Below, in pieces: positions 28,382-34,746 of a stretch of DNA of 35,441 nucleotides. The translations under genes were made by a program, and so were the position numbers. The stretch's first letter is position 1. Each line of letters begins with the position of its first letter. This DNA is from Bacteroidales bacterium (GTDB lineage Bacteria; Bacteroidota; Bacteroidia; Bacteroidales; Tenuifilaceae): positions 1 to 35,441 of the forward strand of contig JANYLA010000138.1 of NCBI GenBank assembly GCA_025361485.1. The letters are read 5' to 3'. Below the pieces are notes generated by a model that was given only the letters and a program-made list of their open reading frames with translations, was not told the DNA's origin and made no database searches.

Positions 28382-29107
28382 ATGCAAGACAAACTATTCA
28401 ATAGTAATCCTGAGTTAAGAAGAGAATTAATCGATTTCTTATCAAGATTCATTCTTGAGCGAAGGGTATCGCAAATTAAGAATGTTTTAAAAGAGAGGAC
28501 AAGATATATTACTGTTGTTCTTGAAGATATTTATCAATCGCAAAACGCCAGTGCAGTTCTTCGAACTTGCGAGTGCTTGGGTATTCAAGATGTACATTAT
28601 ATCGAAGGGGTTCATAGCTTTCATATAAACCCTCAAGTTGTTATAGGATCTAGCAAGTGGTTAACTTTTAAAAACTATAAGGGATCTGAAAATAATTCTA
28701 TAAAGGCAATTGAATCACTACGGGCAAATGGATATAGAATTGTTGCTACTTCGCCTCATGTAAATGAGAAAAGGATTGATAATATTGATTTAGGAAAAGG
28801 AAAAGTTGCTGTTTTTTTTGGTACGGAGAAGTCAGGGTTGTCTCAAACTATTATGAATAATGCCGATGAGTTTATCTCAATTCCAATGTTTGGATTTACC
28901 GAGAGCTATAATATTTCAGTTTCAGCGGCAATTGTTATGTCGTCCCTTTTAAATAGGTTACGAGGATCAGAGATTAGCTACAAACTAGCTCTTGATGAGG
29001 GCGAAATCCTTTTGCTTTCATGGCTTAAATCTACATCAAAGAACTGGGAAATGATGGAAAAAAGATTTTTCCAAGAAAAGAATATTCAGCATTTTGAAAA
29101 ATACTAG
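28382..29107 (+). CDS. trmH: TrmH-like tRNA 2'-O-methyltransferase
   Basis: A 241-residue SPOUT methyltransferase. Its motifs are QSQNASAVLRTCECLGI (motif 1), VAVFFGTEKSGLS (motif 2), and ISIPMFGFTESYNISVSAAI (motif 3 of the trefoil knot), fitting TrmH, which methylates G18 of tRNA. The N-terminal helix extension also fits. It begins 31 bp past the HU terminator with no perfect -7 box. It leads the probable operon to the LytTR, aminotransferase and pseudo-receiver genes. The exact target is inferred from motif similarity. Confidence 0.88.
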   Translation: MQDKLFNSNPELRRELIDFLSRFILERRVSQIKNVLKERTRYITVVLEDIYQSQNASAVLRTCECLGIQDVHYIEGVHSFHINPQVVIGSSKWLTFKNYKGSENNSIKAIESLRANGYRIVATSPHVNEKRIDNIDLGKGKVAVFFGTEKSGLSQTIMNNADEFISIPMFGFTESYNISVSAAIVMSSLLNRLRGSEISYKLALDEGEILLLSWLKSTSKNWEMMEKRFFQEKNIQHFEKY

Positions 29108-29166: not shown

Positions 29167-29874
29167 ATGAATTGCATAATTATTGATGACGACGAAATGT
29201 CGAGAAGGGTAGTTGAGGAGTTTATTGACCGAACCGATTTTTTGAACTTAACCAACTCATTTACCAATGCAGTAGAGGCTATTAACTACCTTAAGCAGGG
29301 CGAGGAGGTACATTTAATCTTTCTTGATGTTGAAATGCCAGAAATGACGGGTCTCGAATTTTTAAATTCGTTAACTCTTTCTCCTCAGATTATTATCGTT
29401 TCATCAAAGGAGAAATATGCAATTCAAGCATTTGATTACAGCGTAACAGATTATTTGCTTAAACCCATTACCTATGCTCGCTTTTTCAGAGCGGCAAGCA
29501 AAGCGTATGAAATATTTAATAAAGGACGTTCATTAACTGATACCGATAAAGAGATTTTTATTAAGAAAAACAGCTCGTTAGTAAGAATAAAATACAATGA
29601 TATACTTTGGGTGGAGGCATTGGAAAACTATGTTGTTATAAATACGACAACCGATAAGTTTACAATCCATTTTACGATGAAATCCATTGAAAATCAGTTG
29701 CCAATGGTTAAGTTTAAGAGAGTTCATCGATCATTTATCGTTAATGTTAGCAGAATAACTAGCATTGAGGATAATTCAGTGATAATAAAAATGACCGATA
29801 GTAAAAAGGTTATCCCGATTGGAAAATCTTATAGAGATAGGTTGTTGAATGAGATAAACTTAATGAATAAATAA
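29167..29874 (+). CDS. LytTR-family response regulator
   Basis: A 235-residue regulator. The receiver domain (about 1-118) carries the acidic pocket IIDDDEM, the phospho-acceptor Asp 54 in IFLDVEMPEMTG, and the conserved Lys in DYLLKPI. The LytTR DNA-binding domain (about 135-232) shows IKYNDILWVEALENYVVI and FKRVHRSFIVNVSRI. No kinase is adjacent, so its partner is unknown. It lies 59 bp after trmH and 19 bp before the aminotransferase gene. Confidence 0.93.
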   Translation: MNCIIIDDDEMSRRVVEEFIDRTDFLNLTNSFTNAVEAINYLKQGEEVHLIFLDVEMPEMTGLEFLNSLTLSPQIIIVSSKEKYAIQAFDYSVTDYLLKPITYARFFRAASKAYEIFNKGRSLTDTDKEIFIKKNSSLVRIKYNDILWVEALENYVVINTTTDKFTIHFTMKSIENQLPMVKFKRVHRSFIVNVSRITSIEDNSVIIKMTDSKKVIPIGKSYRDRLLNEINLMNK

Positions 29875-29893: not shown

Positions 29894-31084
29894 ATGCTAA
29901 GTATAAGGCAACTATTTCTAAAACATGTTGCCCAAACCTCAGAATCGCCTCTTTTGCTCGAAGTTGAACGAGCCGAAGGGGTTTATTTATTTGGGGTTGA
30001 TGGGAAACGTTACATCGACCTGATTTCGGGCGTGTCCGTCAGTAATGTAGGGCATTGTCATCCTCAGGTTGTAGCCGCTGTTAATGAGCAGGTATCGAAA
30101 TATATGCACCTAATGGTTTATGGTGAGTATATTCAGTACCCTCAAGTACTATTGGCTCAGAAACTTGCATCGATATTACCAAATATTCTCGATAATATTT
30201 ATTTTGTAAACTCAGGTAGCGAAGCAGTAGAGGGAGCTTTAAAACTTGCAAAGCGATACACTGATCGTTCGGAGATAGTTTCATTTATCAATGCATATCA
30301 TGGAAGTACCCATGGTGCTTTAAGCGTGATGGGTAACGAGGAGCCAAAACGTGCTTTTAGGCCATTGCTTCCTGATGTCAACCATATCAACTTTAACTCA
30401 ATTCCTGATCTTAAACAAATTACAACAAGGACTGCATGTGTAATTGTTGAACCTGTGCAAGGTGAGGCAGGGGTAATATCTCCAGTGAACGAATATTTAG
30501 GGTTATTAAGAGAAAGGTGCAATCAAACAGGAGCGCTATTAATTTTTGATGAGATTCAAACAGGGTTGGGTAGAACAGGAAGGATGTTTGCTTTTGAAAA
30601 GTATAATGTTATTCCCGATATTCTTTTGCTTGCCAAAGCAATGGGAGGAGGTATGCCGCTTGGTGCCTTTATTTCATCAAAAGAGATTATGAGCAGTTTG
30701 AGCGTTGATCCACCTTTGGGTCATATTACTACCTTTGGCGGTCATCCAGTTTCATGCGCAGCTGCTTTAGCATCGCTTGATATTTTAATTGACCAACAGC
30801 TAATTGAAAAGGCTGATGAAAAGTCTCAGATTTTTATTAATAAGTTGAGTAAACATAAAGCCGTTAAAGCGATTAGAGCCGATGGTTTATTTATGGCTGT
30901 TGAGATAGGTTCTTTTGAAAATATTTTAAAACTGATGAAAGTTGCATTAATGAATGGTATTGTTCTGGATTGGTTTTTGTTCTGTAACACTGCCTTTAGG
31001 ATTGCCCCACCGCTTAGTATTACAAAGGAAGAATGCAACGAGGCGGCTGATTTACTTTTAAAATCGTTAGATGAAATTATATAG
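29894..31084 (+). CDS. Class III PLP-dependent aminotransferase
   Basis: A 396-residue enzyme of the acetylornithine/ornithine aminotransferase group. It has FVNSGSEAVEGALKLAKRYT (about 104-123), IVEPVQGEAG, the PLP-contact Asp 219 in LIFDEIQTGLGRTG, and Lys 248 in LLLAKAMGGGMPLGAF for the Schiff base. The exact amino donor cannot be told; ArgD, ornithine, or a diamine enzyme are all possible. No other arginine genes are near. It overlaps the next gene by 14 bp. Confidence 0.88.
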   Translation: MLSIRQLFLKHVAQTSESPLLLEVERAEGVYLFGVDGKRYIDLISGVSVSNVGHCHPQVVAAVNEQVSKYMHLMVYGEYIQYPQVLLAQKLASILPNILDNIYFVNSGSEAVEGALKLAKRYTDRSEIVSFINAYHGSTHGALSVMGNEEPKRAFRPLLPDVNHINFNSIPDLKQITTRTACVIVEPVQGEAGVISPVNEYLGLLRERCNQTGALLIFDEIQTGLGRTGRMFAFEKYNVIPDILLLAKAMGGGMPLGAFISSKEIMSSLSVDPPLGHITTFGGHPVSCAAALASLDILIDQQLIEKADEKSQIFINKLSKHKAVKAIRADGLFMAVEIGSFENILKLMKVALMNGIVLDWFLFCNTAFRIAPPLSITKEECNEAADLLLKSLDEII

Positions 31085-32030
31085 CGGTATGTATCATTTA
31101 CGCATTTTGCTCTGTATATCATTTTTAAGCATATCGCCCTTAGTCTTAAAATCTCAAGAGGGTGGTAAACTATTATCAATTAGAGCTGCTGAGGATAGCT
31201 TAGCATCATTGATGAAACAAATTTATAGCGATAATTCAATTTCATCAAAAGAGATCGCAAACAACAATTTTATCGTTTTATTAAGGGCAACACTTATTTA
31301 TAATGATGCCTTCGATTATCCATTCGATTCGTTAAAGCATATTGGAAAAATAAAATCGGAGGATAAAAAAATTCGAATATTTTCATGGAATTTCCCGCAA
31401 CAAGGAGGTTATCAGAAGTATTATGGTTTTATTCTTTTAAAAAAGGGGAAAGGCGATATTCAATTATTTGAGCTTACCGATAATCATAAAGCAATCAGCA
31501 ATCCGATAAAAGATATTTTGGGAACAGGAAATTGGATGGGAGCCCTTTACTATTCCATTGCTGATATCTCATATAAAGGAAAAACTCACTATGTTTTACT
31601 TGGTTTGGATTTCAATAATCTCTTTTCATCAAAAAAGATTATCGATGTATTAACTTTCGGAAAGGATTTCGAGCCAATTTTTGGAGCCAATATTTTTCAA
31701 GTGGATAATGTTTCTTTAAGTCGCGTTGTTTTTGAGTTCTCGGCAAGGACAAACATGATGCTTAGGTATTTACCCGAAACTAAAACGATTGTATTCGATC
31801 ATTTGTCACCATCACGCCCTGATTTTGCTGAGAATTATCAGTTCTATGGTTCCGATTTTACCTACGATGGGTTTAAGTTTGATAAGGGCAAATGGGTTTA
31901 CGAAAGAGATTTAGATTTAAGAAACTCAAAAAGAGAGCCTGTTAAACCGAGGGAAAGCCCTGTGAAATTCCCTGATCCTGGCTTCCTTTATAAGAGTAAA
32001 GGCGGATTGCCAATGCAAATAAGGAAGTAG
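31071..32030 (+). CDS. Secreted hypothetical protein
   Basis: A 319-residue protein with an N-terminal signal peptide (hydrophobic about 8-27, ending near VLKSQ). The rest is a soluble, strand-rich periplasmic or surface domain; I do not recognise a named family. Two starts are possible: ATG at 31071, overlapping the aminotransferase gene by 14 bp, and ATG at 31089, which gives a shorter and cleaner signal peptide. It is translationally coupled to the aminotransferase gene and precedes the pseudo-receiver gene by 18 bp. Confidence 0.8.
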   Translation: MKLYSGMYHLRILLCISFLSISPLVLKSQEGGKLLSIRAAEDSLASLMKQIYSDNSISSKEIANNNFIVLLRATLIYNDAFDYPFDSLKHIGKIKSEDKKIRIFSWNFPQQGGYQKYYGFILLKKGKGDIQLFELTDNHKAISNPIKDILGTGNWMGALYYSIADISYKGKTHYVLLGLDFNNLFSSKKIIDVLTFGKDFEPIFGANIFQVDNVSLSRVVFEFSARTNMMLRYLPETKTIVFDHLSPSRPDFAENYQFYGSDFTYDGFKFDKGKWVYERDLDLRNSKREPVKPRESPVKFPDPGFLYKSKGGLPMQIRK

Positions 32031-32048: not shown

Positions 32049-32579
32049 ATGCTAAAAACGAAGATCGATACGAATATTTTTTTGGTTGACCACAACCTTG
32101 AACTTACTCGAGCAATTAGTAATAGTATCGATAACCCGGAGAGATACAATATTTTATCATTTACATCCGGTGAGAAATTTATTGCATATCTATCTGGTAT
32201 TAAGTTTAGTAAAAATGATATTTATATTGTTTTTTTAGGTTATAAGTACTTCGATGAAGGGAATAATACCCTAATGAACGGGGTTGAAATCCTTGAATCA
32301 ACAAAATTAATAAATAAAAATATCGAAGTGGTTATGCTTACCGGCGAAGATGAGGGATCGTACGGTTCGTATGTTATGAAAAGTGGTGCATATATGTTTA
32401 TTCCCAAGAATGAAAATATACATCTGCGAATCAATAATATAATAATGGGAATTATTAGCCAGAAACGTTTGATTCAAAAGCGTCGTAATCTTAAAACCGC
32501 ACTAAAAATTTTGATTGGGTATATAATGCTTGTCACCATTATTTGGGTTATATATCGAATCTTCTACTACGATTTTTAG
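32049..32579 (+). CDS. Membrane-anchored degenerate receiver-domain protein
   Basis: A 176-residue protein with a CheY-like fold at about 9-140: FLVDHNLELTRAI (Asp 14 present), VVMLTGEDE (Thr 98) and FIPKNENI (Lys 120). The phospho-acceptor position, in YIVFLGYKYFDEG, is Gly 64 instead of Asp. A basic KRRNLK stretch and a C-terminal membrane helix (about 152-172) follow. It is thus a pseudo-receiver tethered to the membrane, probably unable to be phosphorylated. It ends the trmH operon; the nearest regulator partner is the LytTR gene three genes upstream. Confidence 0.82.
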   Translation: MLKTKIDTNIFLVDHNLELTRAISNSIDNPERYNILSFTSGEKFIAYLSGIKFSKNDIYIVFLGYKYFDEGNNTLMNGVEILESTKLINKNIEVVMLTGEDEGSYGSYVMKSGAYMFIPKNENIHLRINNIIMGIISQKRLIQKRRNLKTALKILIGYIMLVTIIWVIYRIFYYDF

Positions 32580-32694
32580 CTCCAATCGTCAACTTAACTA
32601 TTTTAATGACTATTTGTCAGACTTAAAAGTATGGCATTGCATTTGAAATTGCTGCACCTGAAAATATTTTGTTAAACCAAAAACAGATTTAGAT

Positions 32695-34746
32695 ATGCAA
32701 AAAGGTAAAATTGGTGTAACCACCGAGAACATATTCCCGATAATTAAAAAGTTTCTTTATTCAGATCATGAGATTTTTCTTCGAGAGTTAATTTCGAATG
32801 CAGTTGATGCTACCCAGAAGTTGAAAACCCTTGCCTCTGTTGGTGAATTTAAAGGAGAAATCGGCGAAGTAAACATTACGATAAGTTTAGATAAAACAGC
32901 AGGAACAATCACCATCTCTGATAAAGGTGTAGGGATGACTGCTGAAGAGATTGAGAAGTATATCAATCAAATTGCTTTTTCCGGGGCAGAGGAGTTTCTT
33001 GAGAAATACAAGAATCAAACGAATGCTATTATCGGACATTTTGGCTTAGGATTCTACTCATCGTTTATGGTTAGCGATAAGGTGGAGATTATTACCAAAT
33101 CGTTTAAGGAGAATACGAAAGCTGTTCATTGGTCGTGCGATGGCTCACCCGATTATAATATCGAGGAGGTTGACCGTACCGAAAGGGGAACGGATATTAT
33201 CCTTCATATCAACGACGATTCAAAGGAGTTTCTCGATGATTTTAAAATAGGGGGGCTTCTTAAAAAGTACTGTCGCTATTTACCTATTCCAATTGCTTTT
33301 GGAACGGAAAAAGAGTGGAAAGATGGCAAAGAGTTAGATACTCAAAATGCCAAAATTATTAATGATGTTAATCCGCTTTGGACTCGCAAACCTGTTGATT
33401 TAAAGGACGAAGATTATCAAAGTTTTTATCATGATCTTTACCCTGCGGCAGAGAAGCCATTGTTTAACATTCACCTAAATGTTGATTATCCCTTTAACCT
33501 AACAGGAGTACTGTACTTTCCACGCATAAAAACAAATTTCGATATTCAGAAGAATAAGATTCAGCTTTACTGCAATCAGGTATATGTTACCGATTCGGTT
33601 GAGGGGATCGTTCCTGAGTTTTTAACTCTGTTGCACGGTGTAATCGATTCGCCAGATATCCCACTAAACGTATCGCGCAGCTACTTACAGAGCGATTCGA
33701 ACGTTAAGAAAATTGCAAGCCATATCTCAAAAAAAGTGGCTGACAGATTGCAGGAGATTTTCAAGAACGATAGGGCTCAATTTGAGAAGAAGTGGGACGA
33801 TCTGAAACTTTTCATTACCTACGGAATGATTACCGATGAGAAGTTTTACGAGAGGGCTGAAAAGTTTTCGCTATTCAAAACGGTTGATGGCAAATACTTC
33901 ACTTTTGAGGAGTATGAGAAGTTGATTAAGGAAAATCAAACCGATAAGAATAAAACTCTTATATACCTTTATACCAATAATAAGGAGGAGCAGCATAGCT
34001 ATATAGAATCTGCACAGAACAAAGGTTATGATGTGCTGATGATGGATGGTCAGCTCGATCCACATTTAATTAATAGCCTCGAATCGAAGTTGAAAGACTC
34101 ACGCTTTGTTCGAGTTGACTCTGATGTGGTTGAAAAACTTATCGTAAAGGAAGATCGTAAGGAGGTTAGCCTACCGCTTGATCAACAGAACGATTTACGC
34201 TCAGTTTTTGAGGGTTCATTACCCGAGAAATCTCATTACTGGGTATCATTTGAAGAGCTTGGAGAAACATCCAATCCTGTTATAATAACTCAATCTGAGT
34301 TTATGCGCCGTATGAAGGATATGGCGGCAATGAATCCTGCCGCAGGATTTTATGGAAACATGCCCGATAGTTTGAATCTTGTAGTAAACGTATCGCATCC
34401 ACTAGTTAAATCAGTTATTGAGAAAAAAGATAAAAAGCTCGGTTCCAAGCTCGAAGGATTTAATAATCAGATTAAACCTGCTGAGGCTAAATCCGAGGAA
34501 TTAAAAGCAGCATCAAAGGATAAGAAAACAGAAGAAATACTCCAAGCTGAGAAAGATGCGCTTGCTGAAGTTGAAAAAGAGATAAATAAGTTGACCGATG
34601 AGAAGAAAGCCTTATTAAATGGCTATGGCAAGGATGATAAATTGGTGAAGCAGCTAATCGATTTAGCCTTACTTGCCAACAATATGCTAAAAGGCGAAGA
34701 CCTTAGCAGATTCGTTAAACGAAGCGTTGATTTGATAAAACCATAA
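32695..34746 (+). CDS. htpG: Hsp90-family chaperone HtpG
   Basis: A 683-residue Hsp90. The ATP site shows ELISNAVDATQKL (Glu 31, Asn 35), ISDKGVGMT and GHFGLGFYSSFMVSDKV; the middle domain has LYCNQVYVTD and DSPDIPLNVSRSYLQSD. The last part (about 578-683) includes a charged segment before the C-terminal dimerisation region. The length is like other Bacteroidota HtpG proteins as recalled. It has its own upstream region with a weak promoter: TTTG (32642-32645), 19 bp, then a short TATTTTG box (32665-32671). Confidence 0.97.
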   Translation: MQKGKIGVTTENIFPIIKKFLYSDHEIFLRELISNAVDATQKLKTLASVGEFKGEIGEVNITISLDKTAGTITISDKGVGMTAEEIEKYINQIAFSGAEEFLEKYKNQTNAIIGHFGLGFYSSFMVSDKVEIITKSFKENTKAVHWSCDGSPDYNIEEVDRTERGTDIILHINDDSKEFLDDFKIGGLLKKYCRYLPIPIAFGTEKEWKDGKELDTQNAKIINDVNPLWTRKPVDLKDEDYQSFYHDLYPAAEKPLFNIHLNVDYPFNLTGVLYFPRIKTNFDIQKNKIQLYCNQVYVTDSVEGIVPEFLTLLHGVIDSPDIPLNVSRSYLQSDSNVKKIASHISKKVADRLQEIFKNDRAQFEKKWDDLKLFITYGMITDEKFYERAEKFSLFKTVDGKYFTFEEYEKLIKENQTDKNKTLIYLYTNNKEEQHSYIESAQNKGYDVLMMDGQLDPHLINSLESKLKDSRFVRVDSDVVEKLIVKEDRKEVSLPLDQQNDLRSVFEGSLPEKSHYWVSFEELGETSNPVIITQSEFMRRMKDMAAMNPAAGFYGNMPDSLNLVVNVSHPLVKSVIEKKDKKLGSKLEGFNNQIKPAEAKSEELKAASKDKKTEEILQAEKDALAEVEKEINKLTDEKKALLNGYGKDDKLVKQLIDLALLANNMLKGEDLSRFVKRSVDLIKP

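Follow-up and report, generated by a model that had tools for sequence, protein, structure and literature searches.

A tail-anchored receiver without its phospho-acceptor Asp in Bacteroidales: a common bacterial switch that appears to have become, more than once, a fixed membrane-bound binding module

Introduction

What can a receiver domain do that stands alone, lacks the aspartate that would accept the phosphate, and ends in a membrane helix? This question is raised by a reading frame in the window, by which we mean the whole analysed stretch of 35,441 nucleotides from a Bacteroidales bacterium. A preliminary description of this DNA had seen in the frame a membrane-tethered pseudo-receiver, had called a stand-alone receiver with a membrane anchor unusual, and had suggested a constitutive docking partner or decoy for a kinase or for the LytTR regulator of the same operon. 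The relevant genes and elements of the window are the following:

28382..29107, + strand, SpoU-type RNA methylase, head of the gene block
29167..29874, + strand, LytTR response regulator with a canonical receiver (DDD, LDVEMP)
29894..31084, + strand, class-III aminotransferase
31071..32030, + strand, SECR, putative secreted protein with no match in Pfam or NCBIfam
32049..32579, + strand, very likely a tail-anchored pseudo-receiver (PREC), 176 aa, ATG start
32615..32645, + strand, conserved promoter-like element of htpG, TGTCA-N-TGGCA-N5-TTTG
32695..34746, + strand, htpG (Hsp90 family), directly downstream of the receiver in every readable family copy

Results

Fold and active site of the receiver

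The alternating beta/alpha fold of receivers is recognizable both in the sequence and in the model. PF00072 (Response_reg) matches residues 10-123 with E 1.4e-6 and 28.9 bits, just missing the gathering score of 30.2, and it is matched by all 21 rows of the own-family alignment at E <= 0.01, at best with 8e-9. The AF2 model of the full-length protein (pLDDT 76.7), which was built on an alignment of 4 sequences and in which alpha4 is not resolved, aligns with CheY (3chy) at Z 10.6 and rmsd 3.3 over 111 residues in VIA-align, and most of the top VIA-align list consists of receivers. A model restricted to residues 1-140, based on 4 sequences as well and likewise without a resolved alpha4, reached 67.3 and stayed below the full-length model. 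Relatives for a deeper structural alignment were sought in viral_contigs, where none were found. CheY, Spo0F and DctD, with which the window protein shares this fold, are phosphorylatable and soluble receivers. The key positions of the window protein, including its C-terminal helix, are these:

32088..32093, + strand, Asp14-His15, acidic at the first site but no longer at the second (CheY Asp13)
32238..32240, + strand, Gly64 (codon GGT) at the phospho-acceptor position
32340..32342, + strand, Thr98 at the switch Thr position, A/Y/T/S across the own family
32406..32408, + strand, Lys120, invariant
32508..32564, + strand, predicted membrane helix near the C terminus (residues 154-172), preceded by positive residues and followed by a tail of 4 residues

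Where a phosphorylatable receiver carries its acceptor Asp after beta3, the window protein has Gly64, and of the acidic pair DD that serves Mg binding only Asp14 is kept, with His15 at the second site. The placement of Gly64 at the phospho-acceptor position of a receiver fold is borne out by the alignment, the PF00072 match and the comparison with CheY. The earlier statement that most landmarks are kept holds for Asp14, Thr98 and Lys120, which are placed as described, but it was slightly generous, as the second acidic site is lost and position 98 is variable. Measured against the definition of pseudo-receivers or ALR domains, two of five positions are lost in the window protein, namely the acceptor and DD2; in pseudo-receivers generally, according to the available text of PMC12632262, DD2 is lost more than DD1, and the window protein agrees with this. 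It is very likely that 32049-32579 encodes an Asp-less receiver with a C-terminal tail anchor, i.e. a pseudo-receiver.

Absence of the acceptor Asp in the own family

All 26 readable copies of the own family lack Asp at the acceptor position (23 Gly, 2 Ser, 1 Ala), and the Asp loss is therefore not recent; a recent loss at the level of the strain is ruled out by these residues. It is thus the absence of Asp that is conserved throughout, whereas Gly itself is found in 23 of the 26 copies. In 24 of these copies there are 23 Gly and 1 Ser, and the two copies from genus g4 have Ser and Ala. A receiver match at E 1e-5 was obtained in 25 of 27 genomes; the other two, both of genus g4, carry at the same spot upstream of htpG an ultra-degenerate relative, and profile comparison connects these two copies to the family with E 1.3e-9 and 1.8e-10. 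The copy of G002 is cut by the contig end, its acceptor position is unreadable and it is outside the 26; L036 has no clean frame and was left out of the family alignment; L007/L010, L008/L011 and L009/L012 are the same contigs and were counted once.

In its own family the receiver is under purifying selection. Its dN/dS is 0.061 between the window and L007 and 0.050 between the window and L008, with 0.077 for the aminotransferase neighbour and 0.023 for htpG as comparison (both versus L007). There are 18 invariant columns in 21 family sequences, and the ORF is full-length wherever the contig permits.

The same slot in other families

An order-wide profile search detected receiver relatives in 115 of 393 genomes (E 1e-10). 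When identical sequences are collapsed and frames <110 aa as well as the two g4 copies are left out, the same gene slot as in the window holds Asp-bearing copies in 23 sequences from 11 families and Asp-less copies in 35 sequences from 7 families, with no mixed family. The residues that stand in place of Asp are Gly/Ser in f1, Ser in f97, Gly in f82, Val/Ile/Gly in f112, Ser/Pro in f115, Asn in f81 and Ala in f38 (family codes are working labels). Homologs with Asp thus do exist, and they had been named beforehand as a sign of a recent loss; the loss is nevertheless family-wide. Outside the slot, Asp is present in 26 of 27 relatives, the exception being L068, which itself lies in a tandem pair upstream of htpG. 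At this locus (L068:4516-6467) one receiver of the pair has Glu in the acceptor position; the other is canonical, ends in a C-terminal helix and is extended at its N terminus by a long stretch rich in Pro and Glu.

On a tree of the neighbouring genes with 47 rows (11 of the 58 operon rows were left out, 4 as near-duplicates and the rest with too little neighbouring sequence), at least three changes between Asp and non-Asp are required, two of which are forced by strongly supported branches. The tree of the receiver itself (75 rows, after exclusion of 10 near-duplicates or fragments) requires at least two changes and groups many degenerate copies on long branches, and as these distort it, the changes were counted on the neighbour-gene tree. 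The changes are read as losses because nearly all wider relatives have Asp, as the tree alone cannot polarise them. Taken together, the sequences indicate that a tail-anchored phosphorylatable receiver was converted to a pseudo-receiver at least twice, and probably such conversions occurred three or more times.

The C-terminal membrane anchor

The membrane helix that had been noticed after the fold comprises residues 154-172, with a mean hydropathy of 2.27, 7 K/R before it and a 4-residue tail after it; of 1000 shuffles of the single sequence, 54 reach its hydropathy. Of the 56 operon copies with >=160 aa, 55 possess a hydrophobic stretch of this kind, in 55 the hydropathy peaks within the last third of the protein, and in all 56 K/R residues are more numerous on the N side than on the C side of the helix. 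By sequence features, namely a single C-terminal helix, a short tail and a positive N side, the protein thus qualifies as tail-anchored, and in view of the 7 Lys/Arg before the helix the positive-inside rule places the receiver most likely on the cytoplasmic side. Membrane calls were hydropathy-based throughout, and genes on the loci were called by a simple longest-ORF script.

This architecture is not unusual. A class-wide search returned relatives in 134 of 395 genomes at E 1e-18, and all 29 examined among the best non-window loci encode a receiver with Asp and a C-terminal helix, so that the analysis also reveals the tail-anchored receiver as a common architecture in Bacteroidia; the Asp-bearing version in the same slot of 11 other families adds to this. 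Many of these class-wide receivers stand after a hybrid kinase and an HPt-sized protein (HPt identity was confirmed for two such proteins, one of them from another locus set than the class-wide loci), and the tail-anchored Asp-bearing receivers of Bacteroidia are probably phosphorelay endpoints. Many Bacteroidia have several receivers of the tail-anchored kind per genome (up to 8 class-wide matches), which represents a lineage-specific expansion. Asp-bearing receivers with or without a membrane helix also occur near ice-binding-like (PF11999) secreted proteins, as in L002 (C48 of the own genome), L070 and L142, and some of these are also near hybrid kinases.

The canonical tail-anchored receivers of the hybrid-kinase/HPt operons and of the htpG slot share domain order, length and helix with the window protein and are its direct relatives, but unlike the window protein they keep Asp and the acidic motif (29/29 class loci; 23 slot copies from 11 families). 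The comparison indicates that the tail anchor is older than the Asp loss, and that the window protein descends, as a pseudo-receiver, from the tail-anchored Asp-bearing kind.

A shift of constraint from one face to another

As orthologues with and without the Asp share one gene context in this slot, the loss of phosphorylation and the gain of a binding face can be compared directly. From the 21 own-family rows, 17 (4 near-duplicates dropped) were set against 20 Asp-bearing slot rows, which remained from 23 once 2 fragments and 1 near-duplicate had been removed, at a matched divergence with mean pairwise identities of 0.41 and 0.37, respectively. The Asp-bearing group shows the stronger conservation at the second acidic site, at the switch Ser/Thr, at alpha1 positions 17 and 21, and around the beta5-alpha5 loop and alpha5 at 121, 124, 125 and 136. 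Among the columns that are conserved chiefly in the own family are 69, 70, 77, 80, 83, 96, 106, 108 and 129, and constraint relative to the Asp-bearing copies was gained in this segment:

32241..32384, + strand, residues 65-112 (beta3-alpha3 loop, alpha3, beta4, alpha4)

The regions were picked after viewing the site list, and the following p values, all without active-site columns, are therefore descriptive: the gain in residues 65-112 has p 5e-7, and that in alpha3-beta4-alpha4 p 5e-5, whereas the loss in alpha1 and the beta5-alpha5 loop has p 1.7e-6 (Mann-Whitney). When the region masks, here with active-site columns, were shifted circularly, 2 of 141 shifts were as high for residues 65-112, 5 of 141 as high for alpha3-beta4-alpha4, and 1 of 141 as low for alpha1 and the beta5-alpha5 loop; bootstrapping reproduced the gain in residues 65-112 and the loss in 200 of 200 replicates each. 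Over the entire alpha4-beta5-alpha5 face, no change in constraint is seen (p 0.96). It should be noted that the term “face” rests on receiver topology and not on the AF2 model, as the alpha4 region is poorly modelled. The surface formed by alpha1 and the beta5-alpha5 loop is the usual docking surface for kinases and HPt proteins, and the part that gained constraint lies elsewhere on the domain.

Gene neighbourhood and the htpG promoter region

In the stretches examined from the order, a block recurs that consists of SpoU methylase, LytTR, class-III aminotransferase, SECR, sometimes an M49 peptidase, the receiver, and htpG. In several lineages (L089, L094, L103, L120 and others) the receiver has an M49 (dipeptidyl-peptidase III) gene beside it or is separated by one from SECR. 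The receiver is immediately upstream of htpG in 26 of 26 own-family loci, and htpG also adjoins it in most operon copies of other families. In the own family the membrane-tethered pseudo-receiver is kept as such in the operon that had been named, and the aminotransferase and SECR neighbours are kept in part: 14 of the 27 family genomes have the receiver linked with the LytTR-aminotransferase-SECR block, 11 have the two separated, and 2 (G002, G014) are undecidable.

The gap before htpG contains the promoter-like element listed above, which resembles a -24/-12 type promoter. Across the order it has the form TG[TA]CA-N12-16-TGGCA-N5-TTTG and in many families is usually placed ~30 to 55 bases upstream of the htpG start (examples are L077, L107, L161 and L176); among 54 htpG genes, 28 have it in strict form, 16 in relaxed form and 10 have none, and the whole own genome has only 2 matches to the TGTCA form. 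The plain form of the -33/-7 promoter consensus of Bacteroidetes has 5 matches in the window, where 2.55 are expected; the htpG gap of the window contains no match. With a conserved promoter-like element of its own directly before it, htpG need not be co-expressed with the receiver.

Discussion

The best reading of these data is a constitutive adaptor, as the acceptor and the conservation on the kinase side are lost, another face is strongly selected, and the tail anchor is kept. The ancestor would have been a phosphorylatable tail-anchored receiver in the slot between the LytTR/aminotransferase/SECR genes and htpG in the order Bacteroidales. The Asp-less receiver would be held by its tail anchor on the inner membrane, on the cytoplasmic side, would no longer receive phosphate, and may bind a partner constitutively via its alpha3-beta4-alpha4 face, with an activity that would then depend on its expression or on the partner's state. 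We give about even chances to such a phosphorylation-independent membrane adaptor with a putative partner on the alpha3-beta4-alpha4 face, a view that draws on sequence conservation and on the analogy to FrzS. The pseudo-receiver of FrzS from Myxococcus xanthus acts independently of phosphorylation and binds SgmX through alpha3-beta4-alpha4, as described in the available text of PMC12632262, and this is the region with the constraint gain in the family of the window protein. FrzS has a C-terminal coiled coil that gives polar placement (PMC11580455, available text), and the window protein has a membrane helix instead.

What alternatives exist for this membrane adaptor? The partner could be HtpG, the Hsp90 homologue, which the receiver might recruit to the membrane or regulate there. 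This is improbable, albeit the least so among the rivals. The receiver directly precedes htpG at every readable own-family locus and, in other families, in the majority of operon copies, and this adjacency outlasts the separation from the other genes of the block. However, htpG has its own promoter-like element in most cases, the receiver lies beside SECR with a non-htpG gene downstream in 8 fetched operon copies (L082, L084, L116, L119, L125, L159, L163, L175), and in 5 loci htpG follows straight after SECR without a receiver. HtpG as the client is for these reasons only a rival to the more general adaptor.

Somewhat less probable is a decoy or competitor that docks to an unlinked histidine kinase or to the HPt of LytTR, or heterodimerises with LytTR, and thereby tunes LytTR phosphorylation. 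Such competitors have been hypothesised (PMC12632262, in the text available), and the receiver shares its gene block with an orphan LytTR response regulator that has a canonical receiver. However, the docking surface of alpha1 and the beta5-alpha5 loop is the very part that lost conservation, the canonical dimer face alpha4-beta5-alpha5 has no overall gain, and among the 25 family genomes that can be decided, 11 have the LytTR block apart from the receiver, a loose tie when compared to the constant adjacency of htpG. Surface data and genomic linkage thus weaken both docking roles that the preliminary description had suggested.

It is unlikely that the receiver is a partner of SECR or of linked membrane processes, for example as a cytoplasmic anchor for SECR export. 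Adjacent SECR-receiver pairs occur in many families, also where htpG is absent, but SECR is present in 222 of 393 order genomes and thus far more widespread than the receiver, it lies elsewhere in 11 of the 25 decidable family genomes, and it has no recognised domain. In a sample of 296 genomes from the phylum, SECR was found in 23, all of the same class. A functionless relic in decay, as the two ultra-degenerate g4 copies and the degenerate copies on long branches in other families might suggest, is very improbable and for the own family contradicted by the selection data, with a dN/dS of ~0.06, invariant columns, full-length ORFs and new constraint on one face.

Pseudo-receivers as such are already known, and the window protein is a variant of them that has a tail anchor and no output domain. 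With the ALR or pseudo-receiver domains described in the available text of PMC12632262 and PMC4395418 it has in common the receiver fold without the acceptor Asp, and it differs from them in that it stands alone. In that text of PMC12632262, the word “transmembrane” is absent and “membrane” occurs only in one reference title; in that of PMC4395418, “transmembrane” is absent as well. No description of a tail-anchored receiver or pseudo-receiver family was found in the literature searched, which covered few subscription journals. How pseudo-receivers work and are regulated is named an open question in the available text of a 2025 review (PMC12632262).

The Bacteroidales slot may offer an approach to this question. 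Tentatively, it can be regarded as a natural series in which a phospho-switch was repeatedly turned into a membrane adaptor, with the kinase side being freed and the alpha3-beta4-alpha4 face being fixed; this could represent a general route from receiver to scaffold, in which the client would be HtpG or a partner in the inner membrane. In this slot, an on/off switch that is common in bacteria appears to have been converted more than once into a fixed binding module at the membrane.
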